IMG/VR virus record: IMGVR_UViG_3300047382_000480
Span: 62,001 to 126,000 of that record
Origin: a virus
Length of the DNA stretch: 64,000 nt
Strand: one strand, 5' to 3'
The notes beneath the pieces were generated by a model. That model made no database searches, had not been told where the DNA came from, and saw only the letters and a list, made by a program, of their open reading frames with translations. The number at the start of each line of letters is the position of its first letter. Position 1 is the first letter of the stretch. Shown piece after piece: positions 3,120 to 51,033 of this stretch. The translations under genes and the position numbers were made by a program.

Positions 3120-5360
3120 TTAAGCACCCAACTCTTCAAACGAAATACCAGTTCTGGTAGCAACGAATGTAAGAGTGATGAAGTTAATTGATTTCGCTGG
3201 CTTGATGAAGATGTCAGCACGGAATTCGTTAGCATCAATAACCTGACCAGTGTTGTTTGTTTCATCACAAACTACACGGAAGTCATATACGCCTCGACGA
3301 CCTTGTACGTCACGCAAGAATGGTTCTACCAAACTTCTAAACTGGGCTCTTGTAAAGGCATCGTTGAATTCGAATAGCTGGAACTTTGCAGCTGCAGCAA
3401 CCGCTTTCTCAATAACGATAAACAATCTACGAACATTGATGCGATTAAACGCACTTGTTTTGGCTAGAAGTGTCTTATCACCAAATAAGATAATACCTTG
3501 TTGGGCATTTTGAACGATTGGGTTGACACCAGCAGAGTATAGCGCATCACGATCAGCTTTAGTAGGATTGAACGCCAATTTAACAGCATTCTTAATCGAA
3601 CCTCGATTCACCCCAGCTGGAGAGAACCATGGATCAGCTTCAAGGTCTGCTGTCACACAACAACCTGCTGTATCTCCATTTACTGGAACCCACGCATAAA
3701 TGTCATTGTAGCGATCGTACATATATTTCCAACCACTATCCATCACAGCATAGGAAGATCTTGTGTAACTTGCCAACTCAGCTTTGATATCAGTTACTTC
3801 AGAACCAGAGTTATTAACAACGCTTGCTCTTGCAGGAGATACAAATGTTAAGCAATCTTTTCTGATCTCAGATACATTATCGATGATGTAATCACCGACA
3901 GTTGCACTATGACCACCAGCAATGATTAGGCTTACGTCAGTTTCTTCATCGTTAGCAAACTTAGCGTATGAGGTTTGTAAATCACCATCAGTTGGTGCTG
4001 CATCTACGCCACCATTAAACGACCAAGCATTTGTATCAGAAGATCCTAAAAGTTTTGGATAAGGTTGTGAGAAACTACCACTTATATCAGTGTTGGCTTG
4101 GGTAGTTGCTAGGTCTTGCCCCCAACTTGTACCAATAAACACAGAATTTGTAGGGACTTGATCAGTGAATCTAATCCAATTAGATCTTGCATTTATTGCA
4201 TCTTTATAGTAATTTGCAGAGTTATCGTCGGATTTTGCGCCTTGTACTTTTGAAAGACCCTCGTATTTCTCGAGAACTGTACCAGCAGTACCAGTAATTT
4301 CACCACCTTCGTCGATCACGATAACGTGCAATTCATCAAAGTTAATTCCGTTTGAGTCAGCCCAGTCAGAAGTTCCTGGAACATTATCAAATTGACCAGC
4401 ATATATCCACTCTGTAGTCAAAGTAGCAGTTGCCTGAGCACCACTCCCACCACCACCACTAAATGTGATTGCAGGGGCAGAAGTATAGCCAAATCCTGGA
4501 TAGATTAAAACTACAGATTCAACAGCACCAGAGTTTAATGTCGCGTATGCATTAGCAGTACCGCCTGTTCTCGGGGAAGCTGCAAACGATACTGTAGGCG
4601 CAGAAGTGTATCCCGACCCACCAGCATCAATAGTGATAGTTTGGCTGACAGCATTAGCAGTGAAGTTACCTAAATCAGCGACTGAGACCTTTAAAGAGTC
4701 GCCAAGTTTTCCTGGGAATTTTGCAGCGAATGGTCCGACACCATTAGATTCTCCTGCATAGGTTGCATCATAATCATCGTCGTTTCTGATTAACTTACCC
4801 TGATTTGCTGAATCTAAGACAACACTAGCGGAAGCACCAGAACCGCCACCGCCTGTGAAGGTTACATTGGGAGCAACAGTATAGCCGAAACCTTGATTGG
4901 TTATAGTAATTCCTGTCACCGCACCACCGACAATTGTTGCAGTAGCGGTAGCAGTAATACCGCCATTTGCTGGGGATACACCAGTTGGGGCTGCAATAGT
5001 TACTGTTGGTGCCGAAGTATAACCCGAACCTCCAGCAGTTATAGTTATACCAGCTGTTGAGACCTGTTTGCTCGTTACCGAAACAGCGTTCCTCGCAGTT
5101 GAACCAACTTCTCTTGATACTAGTAAGTTTGAACCATATGCTAAGAAAGATGAAGCAGTTAGGAAGTCTACGTTATTTGTTCTTCTTGGTTTACCAAATC
5201 GTGCAACAAGATTGTTTTCCCCTGAAACAGAAACCAGTTCACGTGCAGGACCCCAAGCGAAATCGCCTACAAACCCCCCGACTGTGGTTCCAACTGCAGG
5301 AACGACAGCTGTCGCGTCTTGTTCTCTTACGAGAACTCCTGGACTTAATTGAAATGCCAT
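3120..5360 (-). CDS. gp18: Contractile tail sheath protein gp18
   Basis: 746 aa, longer than T4 gp18 (659 aa). The N-terminus MAFQLSPGVLVREQD and the C-terminal part (NPIVQNAQQGIILFGDKT, INVRRLFIVIEKAV, FRVVCDETNNTGQVID) are typical of T4-type sheath. The extra length comes from two paired copies of a GGSGYTSAPTV...GGGGSGA module at about residues 100-320. This module also occurs in other virion proteins of this phage and probably lies on the outer sheath surface, as variable sheath insertions do. A late-type -10 box lies 64 bp upstream. Confidence 0.95.
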   Translation of the reverse strand: MAFQLSPGVLVREQDATAVVPAVGTTVGGFVGDFAWGPARELVSVSGENNLVARFGKPRRTNNVDFLTASSFLAYGSNLLVSREVGSTARNAVSVTSKQVSTAGITITAGGSGYTSAPTVTIAAPTGVSPANGGITATATATIVGGAVTGITITNQGFGYTVAPNVTFTGGGGSGASASVVLDSANQGKLIRNDDDYDATYAGESNGVGPFAAKFPGKLGDSLKVSVADLGNFTANAVSQTITIDAGGSGYTSAPTVSFAASPRTGGTANAYATLNSGAVESVVLIYPGFGYTSAPAITFSGGGGSGAQATATLTTEWIYAGQFDNVPGTSDWADSNGINFDELHVIVIDEGGEITGTAGTVLEKYEGLSKVQGAKSDDNSANYYKDAINARSNWIRFTDQVPTNSVFIGTSWGQDLATTQANTDISGSFSQPYPKLLGSSDTNAWSFNGGVDAAPTDGDLQTSYAKFANDEETDVSLIIAGGHSATVGDYIIDNVSEIRKDCLTFVSPARASVVNNSGSEVTDIKAELASYTRSSYAVMDSGWKYMYDRYNDIYAWVPVNGDTAGCCVTADLEADPWFSPAGVNRGSIKNAVKLAFNPTKADRDALYSAGVNPIVQNAQQGIILFGDKTLLAKTSAFNRINVRRLFIVIEKAVAAAAKFQLFEFNDAFTRAQFRSLVEPFLRDVQGRRGVYDFRVVCDETNNTGQVIDANEFRADIFIKPAKSINFITLTFVATRTGISFEELGA

Positions 5361-32364: not shown

Positions 32365-33969
32365 TTAAAAGTTAAATACCACTTTCAGCGTTTCTACCTG
32401 ATTTTCATCGCGAGTGATAGGTCTACGATTGTCAATATAGAGAATCTCACCAGAATGATTACTTATTTCTGGTGTTGTCAGGCTATTTATAGTTATTCCT
32501 GTATCGCCTGTAGTCACATTTGTGAATGATGACGATGATCCGATTCCAGGATATTTTTGTAATAGATAAACTGTATCTTTAGTTCCGTTACCTGTAGTAT
32601 CTATTGACTGAATTACACTAAACTCACCGCCATCGTTAGTTTGCAGCACATCATCTAAATTAAATTTTGTTATATTTGAAGAAGATACTGTTACAACGTG
32701 ACATGGAGTTCCAACTGTTGATGTAAATGTTGCAGTCTCTGCAAAATTATGCATATTTTTGATAATACCAACTTGTCTAAACTCATTACCAATAATTATG
32801 TCATTTTCGTCGGAGGTGAAAGAAACAGTTACGCCAATATTTTTGGCGAAAAGTTCTCTAGGAGGATTACCTCCGTGACCAGAGTTTGGGGCTACAACTG
32901 GTCTTAATATTGCAGATGTACCAGCACCAATCGATTGCGTTATTTCAATGTCAATAAAAGTGTAATTGGATCCAGGATTAGTCACTATCACATCAGTAAT
33001 AGTTCCAGCAGTATTAACGATAGCAGAAGCAGTTGCACCAGTCCCGTCACCCTTTACAACTAGTGCTACATCTCCTTCAACGTAATCAACACCACCATTT
33101 GTGACAGAAACACGATCCAAAGTACCTTTCACTGCTGCAGCCTCGACCGAGGACTGAAGTGATGGTGTTTCTGAAGAACCGAGTGCAGCTGTAGCAGTAG
33201 CACCCGATCCACCGCCACCAGTAAGTTTGATGAACGCAAAGGAATAACCTCTGCCCTCGCTAGTGATGGTTATACCTGTCACCTGACCACCCGAAACAGT
33301 AGCAGTTGCAACTGCCCCTGTTCCATCGCCTTCTATGACAACAGTGGGCGCAGAACTATACCCAGAGCCACCAGCAGTTACTGTTATTGAATCCAATTCA
33401 CCATTTACATCAAATGCTGGATTACCTGCGCCTGAAACTTTGCGGACAGGAATAAAGTTAGTGTTCAAAAATTTAGTTCTGTCTGCAGAACCAATTTGGA
33501 ACATAAACTTCCACATGTAACCATCATCCAAGGTGAACGTGTCTGTTGCAGTTGATGTTGGTTTAATCGTACTTTGAGCATTGTTGTTATTCTCAAGGCA
33601 CTTATAAACATTGAATTCATCTGTGACTACATAGAACTTGGCGTCAGACAAATTAGTTGCACCACTGTATGCTGGATGATTGTCTGCGTATTCGTCATCG
33701 TACTGGTCGTAAATTGTACCAGAAACCCAGTCATACCTTGGAGCAAGCAATACTGCATCAGATGCATTTATTCGTTTAACGAATAACATATCTTGGCGAT
33801 ATTGTGATTGGTAATACTGAGAGTCACGGGGATTCTCGGGAGTCGTATCGTCATCCCAAGGTCTCGCCCTCGAAGCAAACATATAGAAAAAGTCGTTTTC
33901 GTTAAATATATCTCTATAAAACGAACGAGCATTTTCTACCCTTGCAGCTGATCTTAGTAATAATGCCAT
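32365..33969 (-). CDS. gp8: Baseplate wedge protein gp8
   Basis: 534 aa (T4 gp8 is 334 aa). The N-terminus [21 protein letters not shown] and the later [12 protein letters not shown] match gp8, and the C-terminus [17 protein letters not shown]...VVFNF closely parallels the T4 gp8 C-terminus (HSGEMIYMENRPPI...ILFTF). The roughly 200 extra residues (about 185-370) are [11 protein letters not shown]...GGGGSGA-type modules inserted in the middle. gp8 links wedge subunits in the baseplate. Neighbours gp7 and gp6 are in T4 order. Confidence 0.9.
32484..32491 (-). promoter_or_regulatory. T4-late-like -10 box inside gp8
   Basis: TATAAATA on the minus strand in the 3' end of gp8, 128 bp before the 1994-aa gene. 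It would allow independent late transcription of the giant gene. Confidence 0.45.
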
Positions 33970-34514: not shown

Positions 34515-37500
34515 TTAGGAAATATTTCTTACTTCCCCAACATAATCTTCTGCAAAATAATCACCTGCGTAGTTTTGAGCAATTACCTTTCCAGATTCAC
34601 CCCAAACTGCGCTTTCAGTTTTACTGGTGGCAAATAGTAAGACATTTGATTCGTCAACAAGTGGGTCTTCGGTGTAAGCATTTTCTGAAGCTCGAGTTAC
34701 TGAGGTGTCATTTAACTCAACTGGGTCTGCTTTAACTAGACCTGGAGAAAGATTGGCTACATCATTCCAGTCAACAGATTCTTGTTTATTCAAACCGACG
34801 ACTCTAGTTACAACCTCAGCCCAATCTACTGAATCAATTGGATCTCTGGCAATAAAGAATAATATGTCAACTATTTCAGACCAATCTACAGAATCAGTTA
34901 TATTTGGTCTGTGGAAATCTAACGCAGGTGCATCTTGTATCACAGGATCTTCAGTTTTCGCAAAAACTATATCAAACTTATTTATTGTGTCGTCAAAAGA
35001 TGGAGTTTCAACTTTATTCAAGTTGGGAAGTAATAGTATGGTGTCATCAGAAGCACCAGTTCTCTTATCAGACCAATCTATAGAATCAGTGATATTTGGT
35101 CTGTGGAAGAATAATTGCGGTGCATCTTGAACAACTACATTTTCAATATCTGCGAATATGCGGAATACAATTATGTCTGGTAATGCATTAAACGAAGATC
35201 CCATATCAACCAATTGATTTATTTGGAGGTCAGTCCAAGCAATCATACCAGCAGGATGAGCAATCCGATCTAGAAGTTCTCCCCATTGTGTTTTTGGTCT
35301 AGAAGTTCTAACTTGATACGCGAAGTTTTGGTAAACAGAATTATCTTGTATTCTATTGGCATCAGAAAGAAATCCCTGAGAGTTTTTAAAACTTCCAGGA
35401 TATGTATGTGAGAAACCTGTATTGCAAGTAAGTGTTGTTGTCTCATTTGTTGCTGAACGGAGAATAAAATCAAATGACTCTCTCTGGAAACCTGTACCTG
35501 TAGAGATAACTTCTACGAATGCGGGATAATTGTTTGAATCTAATGTCTTAATCCTAACAACAGCATTGTTATCAATACCAGTAATCGTGTAATCCTCACC
35601 GAAATAATCGATTGCATATACACCTAGAATATCCCCTGTCTCTGAAACTTTGAATGTTTCACCGATAACAAAACCGCCATTTGATGTACCAGAGTTGGTT
35701 TTGAGAGAAACTTTATTTAAAACACGTGTCAAAAATGCTGTTTTATCAGTAATAGTGTCAAGACTTCCCTCAACACCAATCCAAGATCTAACTGCATCAG
35801 TATTGAGAACGATTGTAGGAACATTATTATAACCAACACCTGTTGTATTATTGACAAATAAAACATTGGATATAGAACCATTCGTCAATCTAGCTTCTAC
35901 AACGGCAGTTGTTGTAATCGTGTCATCTGGGTGAGGTAAAACAATAACATCTGGATTAGCAGAATAACCAGCACCTGCATCAGCGATTGTTAACGAAGCA
36001 AGTTTACCCTCTGTTATTGTAGCAACATTACACGTGAGGTTTGCCCCACCACCAAAATATGATGCAGGGAAAACTATCTGTTCACCCTTAACATAATTAG
36101 TTCCTGGATATCCACTAACCAAGCCAATTGTAGCTGCACCAGAAGAATCTATAGTTACAGTAAATCTTGCTCCAGAACCCGAAATATTTGGATTAGCAAC
36201 AACCATCGGGGTAGTATTACTAGCAATAATTTGAGTGGAAGCTGTTCTCAATGCATCGGCTGCACTTATCGACCCAACACTAGCGATTTTACCCTTAACA
36301 GTTGCAGTAATTTCACCTTCAACGCCTTGCCCTGGAATAATGGTATCTCCAGGAAGATCCAGTGTTAATTCAAATGCTTCTGGTGCAGTGTATGCAATTT
36401 TTTTAACACGTGTGACTGAAGTGTTTATAATTTTTCTTTTTGTTATGGATGCTGTAGATTCATAATAATGAACAGAAGCACGCCTTCCCCTCAGATTTAA
36501 TGGATTTGGAACTGGGGATATTTCTGTATTTGCATATGCTTTGACTGTTAATTCTTTTCTATAAATTCCATCTGATGGTCTTAGTATGAATTCAGAAGGA
36601 AGAAATACCTCAACATCTTCATTGTACATAAGTTTAAAGAATTGTTGTATGCCTTGTCGAGAACCTTTTGATTCAAGAAAGGTTTTCATATGCTTTATTA
36701 GCATCCTTGAATCTACAGCAGCAGTAGTCGGGAAGTCTAATGCATACTGTTCTAACATAGGCTGCAAGAAATCTGGGTCATTATGATCAATGTTTATTTT
36801 ATCGATCATCTCCTGGAGAAGGTGAGTCGGGCTGTATTGACTTTCGGATGATCCATTTGATATGTTAAGAGAGGTATATTCCTCTTGCCCAAGATCTTCA
36901 AATCTATAATAGTCTTTTATGAATCTAGCAAAGTTTGGATAGTCAGTTTTTATGAATTCTGGAATCTGAGAATCAGATATGTAACTCATATTATCGTGAT
37001 AATAACCCTGACCCTTTGCAATCTTTTGCAGTACTATGTCAAAGGTTGCGCCCTTACCACCACCCTTCAAACTATCTACAGTGAATGTGATGTCTGGTGC
37101 ATTGTTTACACCACCAATGTCAATATCTAAAACTGTTACAGTTTCGCCTTCTCTATAAAGAGACCCATCATCAATAATAGAATATGAAAGAATTGAACCG
37201 CTGTTATCGATAATGAGACTGATCCTAGCACCTGTCCCTGTTTTTGATGATACTAAAGGAACATTGGTATAGAGACCTGCTGATCTTCTAGAGTCTGCGG
37301 AAGTCGTGTTTATAAGACCAGCACCACCGCTTTTCAGGGGAGAAAGTATGGCAATCTCGGGTGCATCCCGATACCCATCACCCTCTGATGTAATTTGAAT
37401 CGAAGTAACCTGACCATTATTGATTTCAACTTCAGCAGTTGCTTGTATTTGCTCAGACTCAGCTGCACCAGTTGGAGGGCTAATGAGAACAGAAACATCT

Positions 37501-37586
37501 CCTAATTGAGAAGAATAGTTAGAACCCGCAGATGTTATCGTTATGGATTCAATGTATTCCTTGAAATTTGGTGCTGATCTCGCCAT
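34515..37586 (-). CDS. gp7: Baseplate wedge protein gp7-like
   Basis: 1023 aa (T4 gp7 is 1032 aa). The part around residues 280-330 (LIKHMKTFLESKGSRQGIQQFFKLMYNEDVEVFLPS) parallels the T4 gp7 segment ARFFESRSYDFYSTKGI...LYNEEVEIE, and QWGELLDRIAHPAGM parallels the conserved RFVHPVG region. The N-terminus and middle carry beta modules of GxGYxxxP type instead of the T4 N-terminal domains. The last 200 residues hold short repeats (SVDWxE, ITDSVDWSE). gp7 is the core of the wedge. Confidence 0.85.
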   Translation of the reverse strand: MARSAPNFKEYIESITITSAGSNYSSQLGDVSVLISPPTGAAESEQIQATAEVEINNGQVTSIQITSEGDGYRDAPEIAILSPLKSGGAGLINTTSADSRRSAGLYTNVPLVSSKTGTGARISLIIDNSGSILSYSIIDDGSLYREGETVTVLDIDIGGVNNAPDITFTVDSLKGGGKGATFDIVLQKIAKGQGYYHDNMSYISDSQIPEFIKTDYPNFARFIKDYYRFEDLGQEEYTSLNISNGSSESQYSPTHLLQEMIDKINIDHNDPDFLQPMLEQYALDFPTTAAVDSRMLIKHMKTFLESKGSRQGIQQFFKLMYNEDVEVFLPSEFILRPSDGIYRKELTVKAYANTEISPVPNPLNLRGRRASVHYYESTASITKRKIINTSVTRVKKIAYTAPEAFELTLDLPGDTIIPGQGVEGEITATVKGKIASVGSISAADALRTASTQIIASNTTPMVVANPNISGSGARFTVTIDSSGAATIGLVSGYPGTNYVKGEQIVFPASYFGGGANLTCNVATITEGKLASLTIADAGAGYSANPDVIVLPHPDDTITTTAVVEARLTNGSISNVLFVNNTTGVGYNNVPTIVLNTDAVRSWIGVEGSLDTITDKTAFLTRVLNKVSLKTNSGTSNGGFVIGETFKVSETGDILGVYAIDYFGEDYTITGIDNNAVVRIKTLDSNNYPAFVEVISTGTGFQRESFDFILRSATNETTTLTCNTGFSHTYPGSFKNSQGFLSDANRIQDNSVYQNFAYQVRTSRPKTQWGELLDRIAHPAGMIAWTDLQINQLVDMGSSFNALPDIIVFRIFADIENVVVQDAPQLFFHRPNITDSIDWSDKRTGASDDTILLLPNLNKVETPSFDDTINKFDIVFAKTEDPVIQDAPALDFHRPNITDSVDWSEIVDILFFIARDPIDSVDWAEVVTRVVGLNKQESVDWNDVANLSPGLVKADPVELNDTSVTRASENAYTEDPLVDESNVLLFATSKTESAVWGESGKVIAQNYAGDYFAEDYVGEVRNIS

Positions 37587-47521: not shown

Positions 47522-48088
47522 ATGGCTAATCCTTTAGAAAAAATACGAGCAAACTCTAACGACCAGCAAAAATCTATGGACTGGTATCAGAGACAAGTGC
47601 GTCAATTGGCATCAAACGTCAATTCACCGCAAGCATATGTTCGTTCAAAAATGTTTGAAGTGAAATCAGATATAGAGATCGGAAGTATGTACCTCTATAG
47701 ATATGACCCGAAGCATAAAGAAACACTTCCATATTATGACACCTTCCCATTGGTTCTACCATTTGAACCTGCAAAGGGAGGGTTTTATGGATTAAATCTG
47801 CATTACTTACCATATATGATGAGAGCAAAACTTCTTGGTCAATTGCTAGAAACAGCGAACGATAAAACGATTGGTCCAGAAACTAAAATGAGATATAACT
47901 GGCAGATTTTAAAAAGCATTGGTAATGAAATAAAACCTTGTGTGAAAAGGTATTTGACAAATCACGTTGTAACATCTTTCTATAAAGTTAATCCAGAAGA
48001 TTGGAAATCAACTATCTTTCTTCCGATTGACAATTTTGTTGGTGCAACAAAGAATAAAGTATTTACAGATTCAAGGGCAATGCTATAA
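47522..48088 (+). CDS. Conserved head/tail completion protein, possibly gp2
   Basis: 188 aa. WYQRQVRQLASNVNSP leads to the distinctive SMYLYRYDPKHKETLPYYDTFPLVLPFEP and GFYGLNLHYLPYMMRAKLLGQL, followed by PCVKRYLTNHVVTSFYKV. I recall such a segment in T4-like proteins annotated as DNA end protector (gp2), which in T4 is the neighbour of gp4. The size (T4 gp2 is 274 aa) does not match well, so the name is tentative. The stop overlaps the next ATG by one base. Confidence 0.7.
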   Translation: MANPLEKIRANSNDQQKSMDWYQRQVRQLASNVNSPQAYVRSKMFEVKSDIEIGSMYLYRYDPKHKETLPYYDTFPLVLPFEPAKGGFYGLNLHYLPYMMRAKLLGQLLETANDKTIGPETKMRYNWQILKSIGNEIKPCVKRYLTNHVVTSFYKVNPEDWKSTIFLPIDNFVGATKNKVFTDSRAML

Positions 48089-48717
48089 TGGCTAATTTTC
48101 AATTAAATGACTTTTTAGCAAAGATACGTTCAGAAGATCTTGCAAGATCTAGTAGATTTGAGATAGTCATAACAACTCCTGGAAAATCCAGCAACGCAAG
48201 AAGTGTTTCTCTCCTATGCGAAGAAGCAGCAATTCCTGGATTAATATCAACCTTTGTACCAACAAAGATTGGTAACTGGACTGAATATCGTGTTCATGGC
48301 GTTGAATTCTTCGGGGATAATGCAACATTCGGGTTCTATGTTGATACGCAGTGGGGTGTGAGAGAGTTTTTTGAAGATTGGATTGCCACAACTCAAGTTG
48401 ATACTATATCAAAAGAAGTTGGGTTTTATGAAGACTACACTGCTGACATCGAGATATATACGCTGGATAGAGCTGACAACAGAACAGGGAAATGGTGTCT
48501 TCGGGATGCGTTCCCGAGGCTGGTAAACTTAACGCCAGTTTCTCAAGCTGCAGATTCACCAGCAAGAGTAAGTGTCACATTCGCTTACAAATATTGGACG
48601 TCAGATACAATTGAAGAAGGATTCCGCGAAGGCGGTGGACCACTCGGAAACATCAAACGATTGGTCAATATGTTTAAAAACGATGGTAAGGGGTTCAAAG
48701 ACCTTTTTGACTTTTAA
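48088..48717 (+). CDS. Tail-tube-fold protein, possible gp54
   Basis: 209 aa, clearly patterned like the tail tube protein gp19: SSRFEIVITTPGKS, CEEAAIPGLISTF, IGNWTEYRVHGVEFFGDNATFGFYV, REFFEDWIATTQ, and DAFPRLVNLTPV...VSVTFAYKYW. It has a C-terminal extension of about 40 residues not found in gp19. A tube-fold protein in the baseplate cluster fits the tube initiator gp54 of T4 (320 aa), though it is shorter. It may be a tube-cap or initiator protein. Confidence 0.75.
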   Translation: MANFQLNDFLAKIRSEDLARSSRFEIVITTPGKSSNARSVSLLCEEAAIPGLISTFVPTKIGNWTEYRVHGVEFFGDNATFGFYVDTQWGVREFFEDWIATTQVDTISKEVGFYEDYTADIEIYTLDRADNRTGKWCLRDAFPRLVNLTPVSQAADSPARVSVTFAYKYWTSDTIEEGFREGGGPLGNIKRLVNMFKNDGKGFKDLFDF

Positions 48718-48727
48718 GGAGTAAATA

Positions 48728-49426
48728 ATGGCACTACCGCAAATTGATGTGCAAACATTTAATATTAATATATCATCATTGGGAAAGAAATTTAAGTTTA
48801 GACCTTTCCTAGTAAAAGAAGAAAAATTGTTGGTTATGGCAGGGGAGTCTGAGGACAAATCTGATATGATAAATGCCGTGCAACAGATAATAACGAACTG
48901 TTCCATGGGAAAGGTAAACGGAGAAACCTTACCGATATTTGACCTCCAAAAAGTATTCTTAGAAATACGAGGGATGTCTGTATCAAACATCATAAACTTG
49001 GTTGCAAATTGCGGTGAGTGCGGTATAGAAAACGATGTTGTGTTTGACTTAGAAAAAGTCAAGATTACAAAAAACAAAGGACACACTAATAAAATAAAAC
49101 TCACCGAAACAATGATTCTGGAAATGGATTACCCAGACGTTCACGAAATCAGTAAACTGATGAGTGGTGAGACAGAAGAAATATATGAAGTAACAGCAAA
49201 TTGTATTAAAACGATCTATAACGACGAAGAAATAATTCAATTCCAAGAAAGTCCATTGGAAGAAAGAATTAATTTTATAGAAGGATTTTCGGTTAAACAA
49301 TTTGCTCTTATAAGACAATTTTACGAAAGTATGCCACAAATTTTACATGCGATTGATTTCAAATGTAAGGCATGCAAAAAGGACAATACGCTTGTTATTG
49401 ATGGCTACGAAAATTTTTTCGTCTAA
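48728..49426 (+). CDS. gp26: Baseplate hub assembly protein gp26
   Basis: 232 aa (T4 gp26 is 208 aa). MALPQIDVQTFNINISSLGKKFKFRPFLVKEEKLL is the characteristic start of the T4_baseplate/gp26 family. It contains two Cys pairs that look like a zinc ribbon: NCGECG near residue 98 and CKACK near residue 219. AAGGAG lies 8 nt upstream. The end of the gene (GAA AAT TTT TTC GTC TAA) contains a double slippery run that could send ribosomes into the -1 frame. Together with the next segment it resembles a phage tail-assembly-chaperone pair. Confidence 0.88.
   Translation: MALPQIDVQTFNINISSLGKKFKFRPFLVKEEKLLVMAGESEDKSDMINAVQQIITNCSMGKVNGETLPIFDLQKVFLEIRGMSVSNIINLVANCGECGIENDVVFDLEKVKITKNKGHTNKIKLTETMILEMDYPDVHEISKLMSGETEEIYEVTANCIKTIYNDEEIIQFQESPLEERINFIEGFSVKQFALIRQFYESMPQILHAIDFKCKACKKDNTLVIDGYENFFV
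49411..49420 (+). promoter_or_regulatory. Probable -1 ribosomal frameshift site
   Basis: AAATTTTTTC in the gp26 reading frame gives two overlapping X-XXY-YYZ heptamers, A-AAT-TTT and T-TTT-TTC, 3 bases before the gp26 stop codon. An AT hairpin (AATTTGTTT / AAACAAATT) lies about 30 bases downstream at 49450-49468. The -1 frame is blocked by TGA at 49399 and open from 49402 to 49596, so it can be entered only by shifting or from a weak internal start. Confidence 0.65.
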
Positions 49427-49596
49427 GCCTCTCTCACGAAACCTTGCAGAATTTGTTTAAAACAAATTTTTTATTAATGCAAGAACACCATTACTCTCTC
49501 ACGGAAATAGAGGCAATGGTTCCTTGGGAGAGGGAAGTCTACGTTGCTATGTTAGTTGAACATCTAAAGAAAAAGGCTGAGGCTGCAAAGAGATAA
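49420..49596 (+). CDS. gp51-like frameshift extension of gp26
   Basis: 58 codons in the -1 frame, no upstream ATG. The product reads RLSLSHETLQNLFKTNFLLM, then QEHHYSLTEIEAMVPWEREV and a basic helical end. The YSLTEIE...PWER pattern is that of C-terminal extensions of tail assembly chaperones and of small gp51-type hub assembly proteins. The first usual start is ATG at 49477 (39 codons), but the protein-like part begins before it. Shifting would give a 289-aa gp26 fusion. It lies directly before the candidate tape measure, the classical place. Confidence 0.68.
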   Translation, partial: RLSLSHETLQNLFKTNFLLMQEHHYSLTEIEAMVPWEREVYVAMLVEHLKKKAEAAKR

Positions 49597-49602
49597 AGAA
49601 CT

Positions 49603-51033
49603 ATGGCAGAAGAAATTAGACCAAACCTGAACAAATCCCGTGGGGATGTCGTTATCGGTTTTCCAGACCTTCTGAAAGGTAACGCTGGAAACTCCGCTAC
49701 ATCTGATCCAATCACAATGAAAAGGGCTGAAGAAGGTCAGTCTTTTGGCGGTTCTGGAAGTGGCGGTGGCGGTGGCATGTCTAATAACGTCACACCAATA
49801 CTTGGTGATCTTCAAGCTGCATCCGAACTCTCTATGGAAGAGTTGGCAAAACAAACAGATATCTTAGAAGGAATAGAAAAAAACACTTCTGAAACAACCA
49901 CTGCTGGCGGTCAAGAAAAGAAATCTTCCGAAGAAGATATAAGAGCAAAACTAGATGAATCAAAACCCCTTGACCAAGAACAAGGGAACAAGATAATCGA
50001 TAAGCTGGCTGAGCTCAATAGCAATAGTAAAGCAACAGCATCTCTGTTGTCAGTTGCTGCGGCATTTGCAGGAACTCAAGCCGACGAAATCACAGACGCA
50101 ATTGACAATATGACCACCACACAGAAGGCTGTTGCTGCAGCATTAACTGTTGGTGTTGCAGGAACTAGTATCGCTGCAAGTAAACTTGTGACCGCTCCAT
50201 TGAAAAAAATTGTTAGTCCTGACAAAAAGGAAAAACCAAAGCCCAATTCCTCGAAGTCAAAAAAACCAAAAACTGCTAAACCCAAACCCCCACCATCTCC
50301 CGCTAAACCCAAATCAGGAGTCGTTAAACAGGCAGCAAAGACAGGCGGTAAATTGATTGCTAAGCAGGGAGCAAAGGTGGCAACAATTGCTGCATCTGGT
50401 CCAGCAGCACCTATCGTCGCGAGTGTCATGGCTGCAGCAACAGTTTATGAGCTTGGTACAATGGCTCTGGAAAAGGCAGGTTATGGGGAAGAAGTCGAAG
50501 CATTTGAAACAGGTGCAATGAATCTTGCTGGGATTGAAACAGATGAACAAGAAATTGAAAAAGATGCAGCCAAAGTTGCATTGAATGAGAAGAAAATGCA
50601 GGCTTTGGTCAAGAAAATTGATTCGTCAGACCTCACCGACCAACAAAAAACATTTCAAAAGGCAGAGTTACAGAAGGCATTGAATAACAGCGGTGACGTA
50701 GATACATTCGGAGACAGAAAAGCAAGGATTGCAGATAGAACATTTAAGAGATATGAGAAAATGTATGGTGAAGTAGAGATAGAATCACCAATGACACCTC
50801 CTCCTCAAAGCTCAAACTCGATTGAATCAGAAACATCACAAGCTAGAGAAGCAGAGTTGTTGGCGATGATTCCTGATATTCAAATCCCACCGCAAATACC
50901 ACCAACAGTTAATGTACCAAACCAACCTGCTCCAAATGTTAGTGTGAGCGCAGTTCTTCCAAGAACAAACTTGCCATCCGAATTGTCTTCATTCGGGAAC
51001 CAAGCTAGGATTCCTAAACTAGTTGTTTCATAA
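49603..51033 (+). CDS. Candidate tape measure/hub protein (gp29-like)
   Basis: 476 aa. A Gly-rich hinge (GGSGSGGGGG) near residue 50 is followed by a long helical stretch (ASELSMEELAKQTDILEGIEKNT, IDKLAELNSNSKATASLLSVAA). Hydrophobic Ala/Val segments occur at about 145-190 and 260-290, with a Lys/Pro-rich linker (KPKPNSSKSKKPKTAKPKPP) between them and a Pro-rich C-terminus (IQIPPQIPPTVNVPNQPAP). No catalytic motif. The place after the chaperone pair, the helices and the hydrophobic patches fit a tape measure. T4 gp29 is 590 aa. Confidence 0.7.
   Translation: MAEEIRPNLNKSRGDVVIGFPDLLKGNAGNSATSDPITMKRAEEGQSFGGSGSGGGGGMSNNVTPILGDLQAASELSMEELAKQTDILEGIEKNTSETTTAGGQEKKSSEEDIRAKLDESKPLDQEQGNKIIDKLAELNSNSKATASLLSVAAAFAGTQADEITDAIDNMTTTQKAVAAALTVGVAGTSIAASKLVTAPLKKIVSPDKKEKPKPNSSKSKKPKTAKPKPPPSPAKPKSGVVKQAAKTGGKLIAKQGAKVATIAASGPAAPIVASVMAAATVYELGTMALEKAGYGEEVEAFETGAMNLAGIETDEQEIEKDAAKVALNEKKMQALVKKIDSSDLTDQQKTFQKAELQKALNNSGDVDTFGDRKARIADRTFKRYEKMYGEVEIESPMTPPPQSSNSIESETSQAREAELLAMIPDIQIPPQIPPTVNVPNQPAPNVSVSAVLPRTNLPSELSSFGNQARIPKLVVS

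Follow-up and report, generated by a model that had tools for sequence, protein, structure and literature searches.

A conserved poly-T slippery site and a very probable -1 frameshift fusion of gp26 and gp51 in an uncultured marine T4-like phage

Frameshifted tail assembly chaperones in long-tailed phages

In phage lambda, the slippery site of the gpG/gpGT system is GGGAAAG, which differs from the T TTT TTC of the locus described here. Moreover, homology between gp26 and lambda gpG was not detected (hhalign probability of 0.3% with a single lambda gpG sequence). In the E. coli dnaX gene, a Shine-Dalgarno-like element is located about 10 nt before the slippery heptamer. For T4-like phages, frameshifting at a poly-T site is reportedly apparently conserved in several groups, and T4 itself is said to use genes 26 and 51. 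A 2016 review stated that the G-T type of frameshifting is widely conserved in long-tailed phages "except T4" (PMC5009743). More recently, the tail assembly chaperones of T4-like phages were the subject of a dedicated study (Vladimirov, Gautam and Davidson, Virology 2022, 566:9-15). As far as this study is reflected in the papers citing it, it deals with the same gene pair and makes the same proposal, namely that a short (TAC-N) and a long (TAC-NC) chaperone form arise by -1 frameshifting. To judge from the same papers, a -1 frameshift in T4-type gp26, which is also our central claim, is already published, and the original prediction erred in supposing that it might be undescribed. The locus described here adds a new member, an uncultured marine phage. 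A similar arrangement has been found in the Vandenendeviridae, in which a conserved -1 frame and a poly-T motif likewise occur where TAC-N ends (phage Adele; PMC12846349). However, the motif is GTTTTT in this case and other phage families are concerned.

The gp26-gp51 locus and the proposed frameshift

The DNA analysed here, hereafter called the window, is a stretch of 64,000 nt from the IMG/VR virus record IMGVR_UViG_3300047382_000480. On its forward strand, the gp26 gene (48728-49426) encodes a protein of 232 amino acids, the presumed short form TAC-N. In profile searches, the whole protein matched PF12322 (E=3.5e-53, residues 11-231) and phrog_150 (E=2.8e-57). The AlphaFold model of gp26 is confident (mean pLDDT of 91) and matches the predicted structures of T4-type gp26 and gp51 and, more distantly, other proteins of long-tailed phages; a search of the PDB with the model gave no fold match at E<=0.001. 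The gene ends with GAA AAT TTT TTC GTC TAA. As described in the original prediction, this end contains two stacked -1 heptamers, A AAT TTT (49411-49417) and T TTT TTC (49414-49420), the latter being the proposed shift site, read as NNT TTT TTC in the gp26 frame. The gp26 stop codon TAA (49424-49426) follows the heptamer after one sense codon, a spacing shared by most relatives. The -1 frame opens after a TGA (49399-49401), spans 49402-49593 and is closed by a TAA (49594-49596). It contains a TTG at 49444 and, as predicted, a first ATG only at 49477, about 50 nt past the gp26 stop. The 64 codons that had been counted past this stop turned out to be the entire open -1 frame, of which about 57 codons lie past the stop and 58 past the shift.

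These 58 codons and their stop (49420-49596, forward strand) encode an extension that belongs to the gp51 family and is designated TAC-C. It matches phrog_634, the family of the gp51 "baseplate hub assembly catalyst", at positions 55-113 of 121 (E=2.9e-24), and is 51-58% identical to the extensions of cyanophages. Moreover, it matches the gp26 profile phrog_150 at positions 228-281 of 282 (E=7.6e-8), indicating that some members of phrog_150 are in-frame fusions. The gp26 part shares about 38% identity with its nearest named phage, and the window represents a new, uncultured marine member of the T4-like phages.

Our interpretation is that the locus is very probably a single chaperone gene, from which a short and a long form would be made by programmed -1 frameshifting, the long form being a gp26-gp51 fusion. 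Most ribosomes would terminate at the TAA at 49424 and release the 232-residue gp26. A minority would move back by one base while their P and A sites each hold tRNA-Phe on T TTT TTC, and would read 58 further codons, which yields the predicted fusion of 231 + 58 = 289 amino acids (TAC-NC), the size given in the original prediction. The analogy with lambda gpG/gpGT suggests that the short form may coat the tape measure protein, while the extension of the long form may recruit tail tube subunits. The comparisons described below establish the layout of the locus, its gp51 homology and the conservation of the frame, of the heptamer and of the coding ahead of the ATG; the slippage, its efficiency and the chaperone function are inferred.

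Directly upstream of gp26 lies a homologue of the tail tube protein (48088-48717, forward strand; phrog_45, E=1.2e-32). Downstream, an ORF of 476 amino acids with a long hydrophobic stretch (49603-51033, forward strand) occupies the position expected of the tape measure gene; it gave no family match in profile searches and has no similarity to the putative tape measure protein of HTVC008M. Elsewhere in the window, the tail sheath protein and two baseplate wedge-type proteins match the same virion-structural profiles, phrog_701, phrog_19630 and phrog_460 (ORFs at 3120-5357, 32368-33969 and 34518-37586, minus strand), suggesting that a repeated accessory domain has been inserted into several tail proteins.

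The locus taken singly is only suggestive. Open -1 frames past a stop codon are common in this genome and, because genes often overlap in it, the open -1 frame is nothing unusual by itself. In the main ORFs of the window, an in-frame T TTT TTN occurs in 5 of 14,672 codon pairs (0.034%). It would thus be expected among the eight final codons of a gene in about 0.3% of cases, and any heptamer of the type X XXY YYZ in about 5%. Therefore, the weight of the argument rests on the conservation of the site in 154 of 154 junctions.

The proposed shift site and its surroundings among relatives

Relatives were collected from IMG/VR by using patterns located within either the gp51 part or the N-terminus of gp26, both of which exclude the shift site, and were supplemented with named phages. 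The removal of identical sequences left 154 distinct junctions that are not of the T4 type, and thinning to less than 80% identity left 86 representatives. The gp51 part is located in the -1 frame in all 164 loci, and all of the 154 distinct junctions contain T TTT TTN in frame. Without exception, the first Phe codon of the 86 representatives is TTT (62 expected from codon usage) and the preceding codon ends in T (54 expected). Together, these two preferences have a log10 probability of about -32, a nominal value as the representatives are related to each other. Within the clade of the window, all 19 members carry TTTTTTCG unchanged. The same site was found in the Pelagibacter phage HTVC008M, the Ochrobactrum phage vB_OspM_OC, the Aeromonas phage phiWae14, KVP40, Cr30 and others. 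Of the two stacked heptamers, only T TTT TTC is conserved. The identical A AAT TTT is present in 11 of the 86 representatives; it is probably incidental and possibly helpful. The extension also lies in the -1 frame in the Ackermannviridae phage PhiSH19 and in Vibrio phage 1.244.A. PhiSH19 has no clear heptamer, the sequence at the respective place being GAG ATT TTC ATT TAA. In the record of this Salmonella phage, the -1 extension of the gp26 homologue (L010:2175-2440) is unannotated.

An indel in a single metagenomic contig is conceivable, and it could split one frame into two. However, a second IMG/VR contig encodes a gp26 and an extension identical to those of the window, and the -1 arrangement is common to all relatives, which leaves a sequencing error or a decayed gene as a negligible explanation. 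Slippage of the RNA polymerase on the T run, rather than of the ribosome, would also yield a fusion, and a run of at least six T is present in all junctions. Yet transcriptional slippage is indifferent to the codon phase, whereas the phase is always NNT TTT TTN. The other phase, TTT TTT, does exist in a PM2-type relative belonging to the T4 group (L180, GAG TTT TTT). Moreover, six T are short for polymerase slippage, and we regard this route as very improbable.

The remaining alternative is that gp51 is made as a separate small protein without fusion, either by termination-reinitiation or from a start codon of its own. Candidate starts are, in some relatives, an ATG that overlaps with the stop codon of gp26 and, in the window, the TTG at 49444 or the ATG at 49477. 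Public annotations indeed give gp51 its own CDS, and 8 of the 86 representatives, including KVP40, P10VF, Cr30 and Marzo, have the stop-overlapping ATG. However, 58 representatives have no ATG among codons 1-15 of the -1 frame, and in these the extension is nevertheless conserved as a protein all the way up to the heptamer (from position 3 on; L6 in 49/58, H8 in 48/58 and L11 in 54/58). The conserved positions ahead of the ATG lie past the gp26 stop in most relatives and, therefore, the gp26 frame cannot explain their conservation. This amino acid conservation, which agrees with the predicted protein-like sequence before the ATG, favours the fusion over a gp51 with a start of its own. Moreover, the heptamer is located 31-34 nt ahead of the gp26 stop in several relatives, which also speaks against this alternative. 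In the window, there is no ATG at or beside the gp26 stop, where termination-reinitiation would need one, and by inspection no Shine-Dalgarno-like match precedes the TTG at 49444 or the ATG at 49477. Reinitiation also leaves unexplained why T TTT TTN is present in 154 of 154 junctions and absent where gp51 is separate. Overall, we consider a separate gp51 very unlikely. Reinitiation may fit the minority of 8 of the 86 representatives as an addition to frameshifting, but not the remaining ones. The motif TRATG at the gp26 stop was found in KVP40, P10VF, Cr30, Marzo and Vibrio phage 1.244.A. Given that the heptamer is kept in the first four of these phages, both frameshifting and reinitiation could occur there.

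A point against the frameshift reading is that the heptamer of the window is flanked neither by a Shine-Dalgarno-like element nor by a conserved downstream structure. The stop-overlapping ATG in 8 of the 86 representatives and the lack of detected homology to lambda gpG likewise count against it. In 74 of the 86 representatives, a Shine-Dalgarno-like sequence with a value of -3 kcal/mol or lower is located 7-14 nt 5' of the heptamer, whereas in the background 7-8% of the positions are this strong for any one spacing. The signal is partly due to a conserved Glu-Gly. However, synonymous randomisation yielded weaker sites than the natural ones (Wilcoxon p=6e-7). Moreover, the Glu is encoded by GAG in 30 of 44 cases (background 26%) and the preceding Leu by TTG in 19 of 31 (background 17%). 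GAGG is present in 34 of the strong cases, and in 30 of them exactly 10 nt separate the end of this core from the heptamer; HTVC008M has GAGGG at this element. No early ATG is present in the -1 frame in 24 of 42 strong cases, and where an ATG overlaps the stop, the element lies about 20 nt before it, which is beyond the range for initiation and speaks against a separately initiated gp51. The spacing of 10 nt appears suited for stimulating a -1 shift and not for initiation, and the arrangement in the relatives resembles that of dnaX in that a two-tRNA slippery heptamer is preceded by a Shine-Dalgarno-like element at a distance of about 10 nt. The window differs from dnaX since it lacks the upstream element (best value of -1.8 kcal/mol), as does its clade, and a conserved downstream hairpin was not found. 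The upstream element is missing although the genes of the window do use Shine-Dalgarno initiation (78% versus 28% of random stretches). In our judgement, the chances are even that the cyanophage- and pelagiphage-type sites carry a selected GAGG stimulator while the window's clade relies on the bare heptamer (stacked in the window), so that the ratio of short to long form may differ by lineage. A description of a GAGG 10 nt upstream of the heptamer was not found in the literature, in which the 2022 paper was represented by its citing papers.

The AT-only hairpin at 49450-49468 that the original prediction pointed out does exist in the window. As a stimulator it was rejected: it is broken in relatives, and no consensus structure emerged in the window's clade. 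Across all representatives, the mean folding z-score 3' of the heptamer is about -1.2, compared with -0.1 to -0.3 in control stretches. Because this mean is only mildly negative and too weak, no structural element is named.

The T4 group and the annotation of gp51

The T4 group serves as a natural control. As in the window, PF12322 is found in the products of T4 genes 26 and 51. However, the two genes are separate and located on opposite strands in T4, with neither a frameshift nor a heptamer. T4 gp26 and gp51 both match PF12322 and phrog_150 and are similar to each other (BLASTP E=2e-6); the phrog_634 domain is confined to gp51. Since T4 gp51 matches phrog_150 over its full length and phrog_634 in addition, it is to be regarded as an in-frame long form. 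Judging by these profile matches, gene 51 of T4 already encodes the long form, and T4 does not frameshift at gene 26. T TTT TTN is absent from the end of gp26 in all 13 of the examined T4-group phages (Straboviridae) that have separate gp26 and gp51 genes. The GL..FF end of the protein is mostly kept in this group and is encoded by GAR TTC TTT or similar codons. For instance, T4 gp26 ends with GLKEFFELL, in which GAG TTC TTT is used. By contrast, KVP40, a member of the Straboviridae with the -1 arrangement, has the heptamer. The absence of the heptamer from the T4 group agrees with the conserved frame, the conserved heptamer, the coding ahead of the ATG and the gp51 homology, and the programmed -1 frameshift that had been predicted for gp26/gp51 is supported by all of these comparisons.

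In public annotations, gp51 is a separate CDS, and none of the records examined joins the gp51 part to gp26. The record of HTVC008M places the start of gp51 at a downstream ATG (L175:16366-16556, minus strand), although the -1 frame is open up to the gp26 heptamer. In the cyanophage ACG-2014e, the gp51 part (L005:1899-2090) carries no annotation.

These observations point to an evolutionary switch, in which the lineages with a slippery site keep the heptamer without exception in our sample while the T4 group with separate genes lacks it. They would also amend how a gene present in hundreds of T4-like phages is annotated, gp51 often being started downstream or omitted. Moreover, gp26 and gp51 of T4, its two proteins of hub assembly, are best read as the short and the long form of the chaperone.
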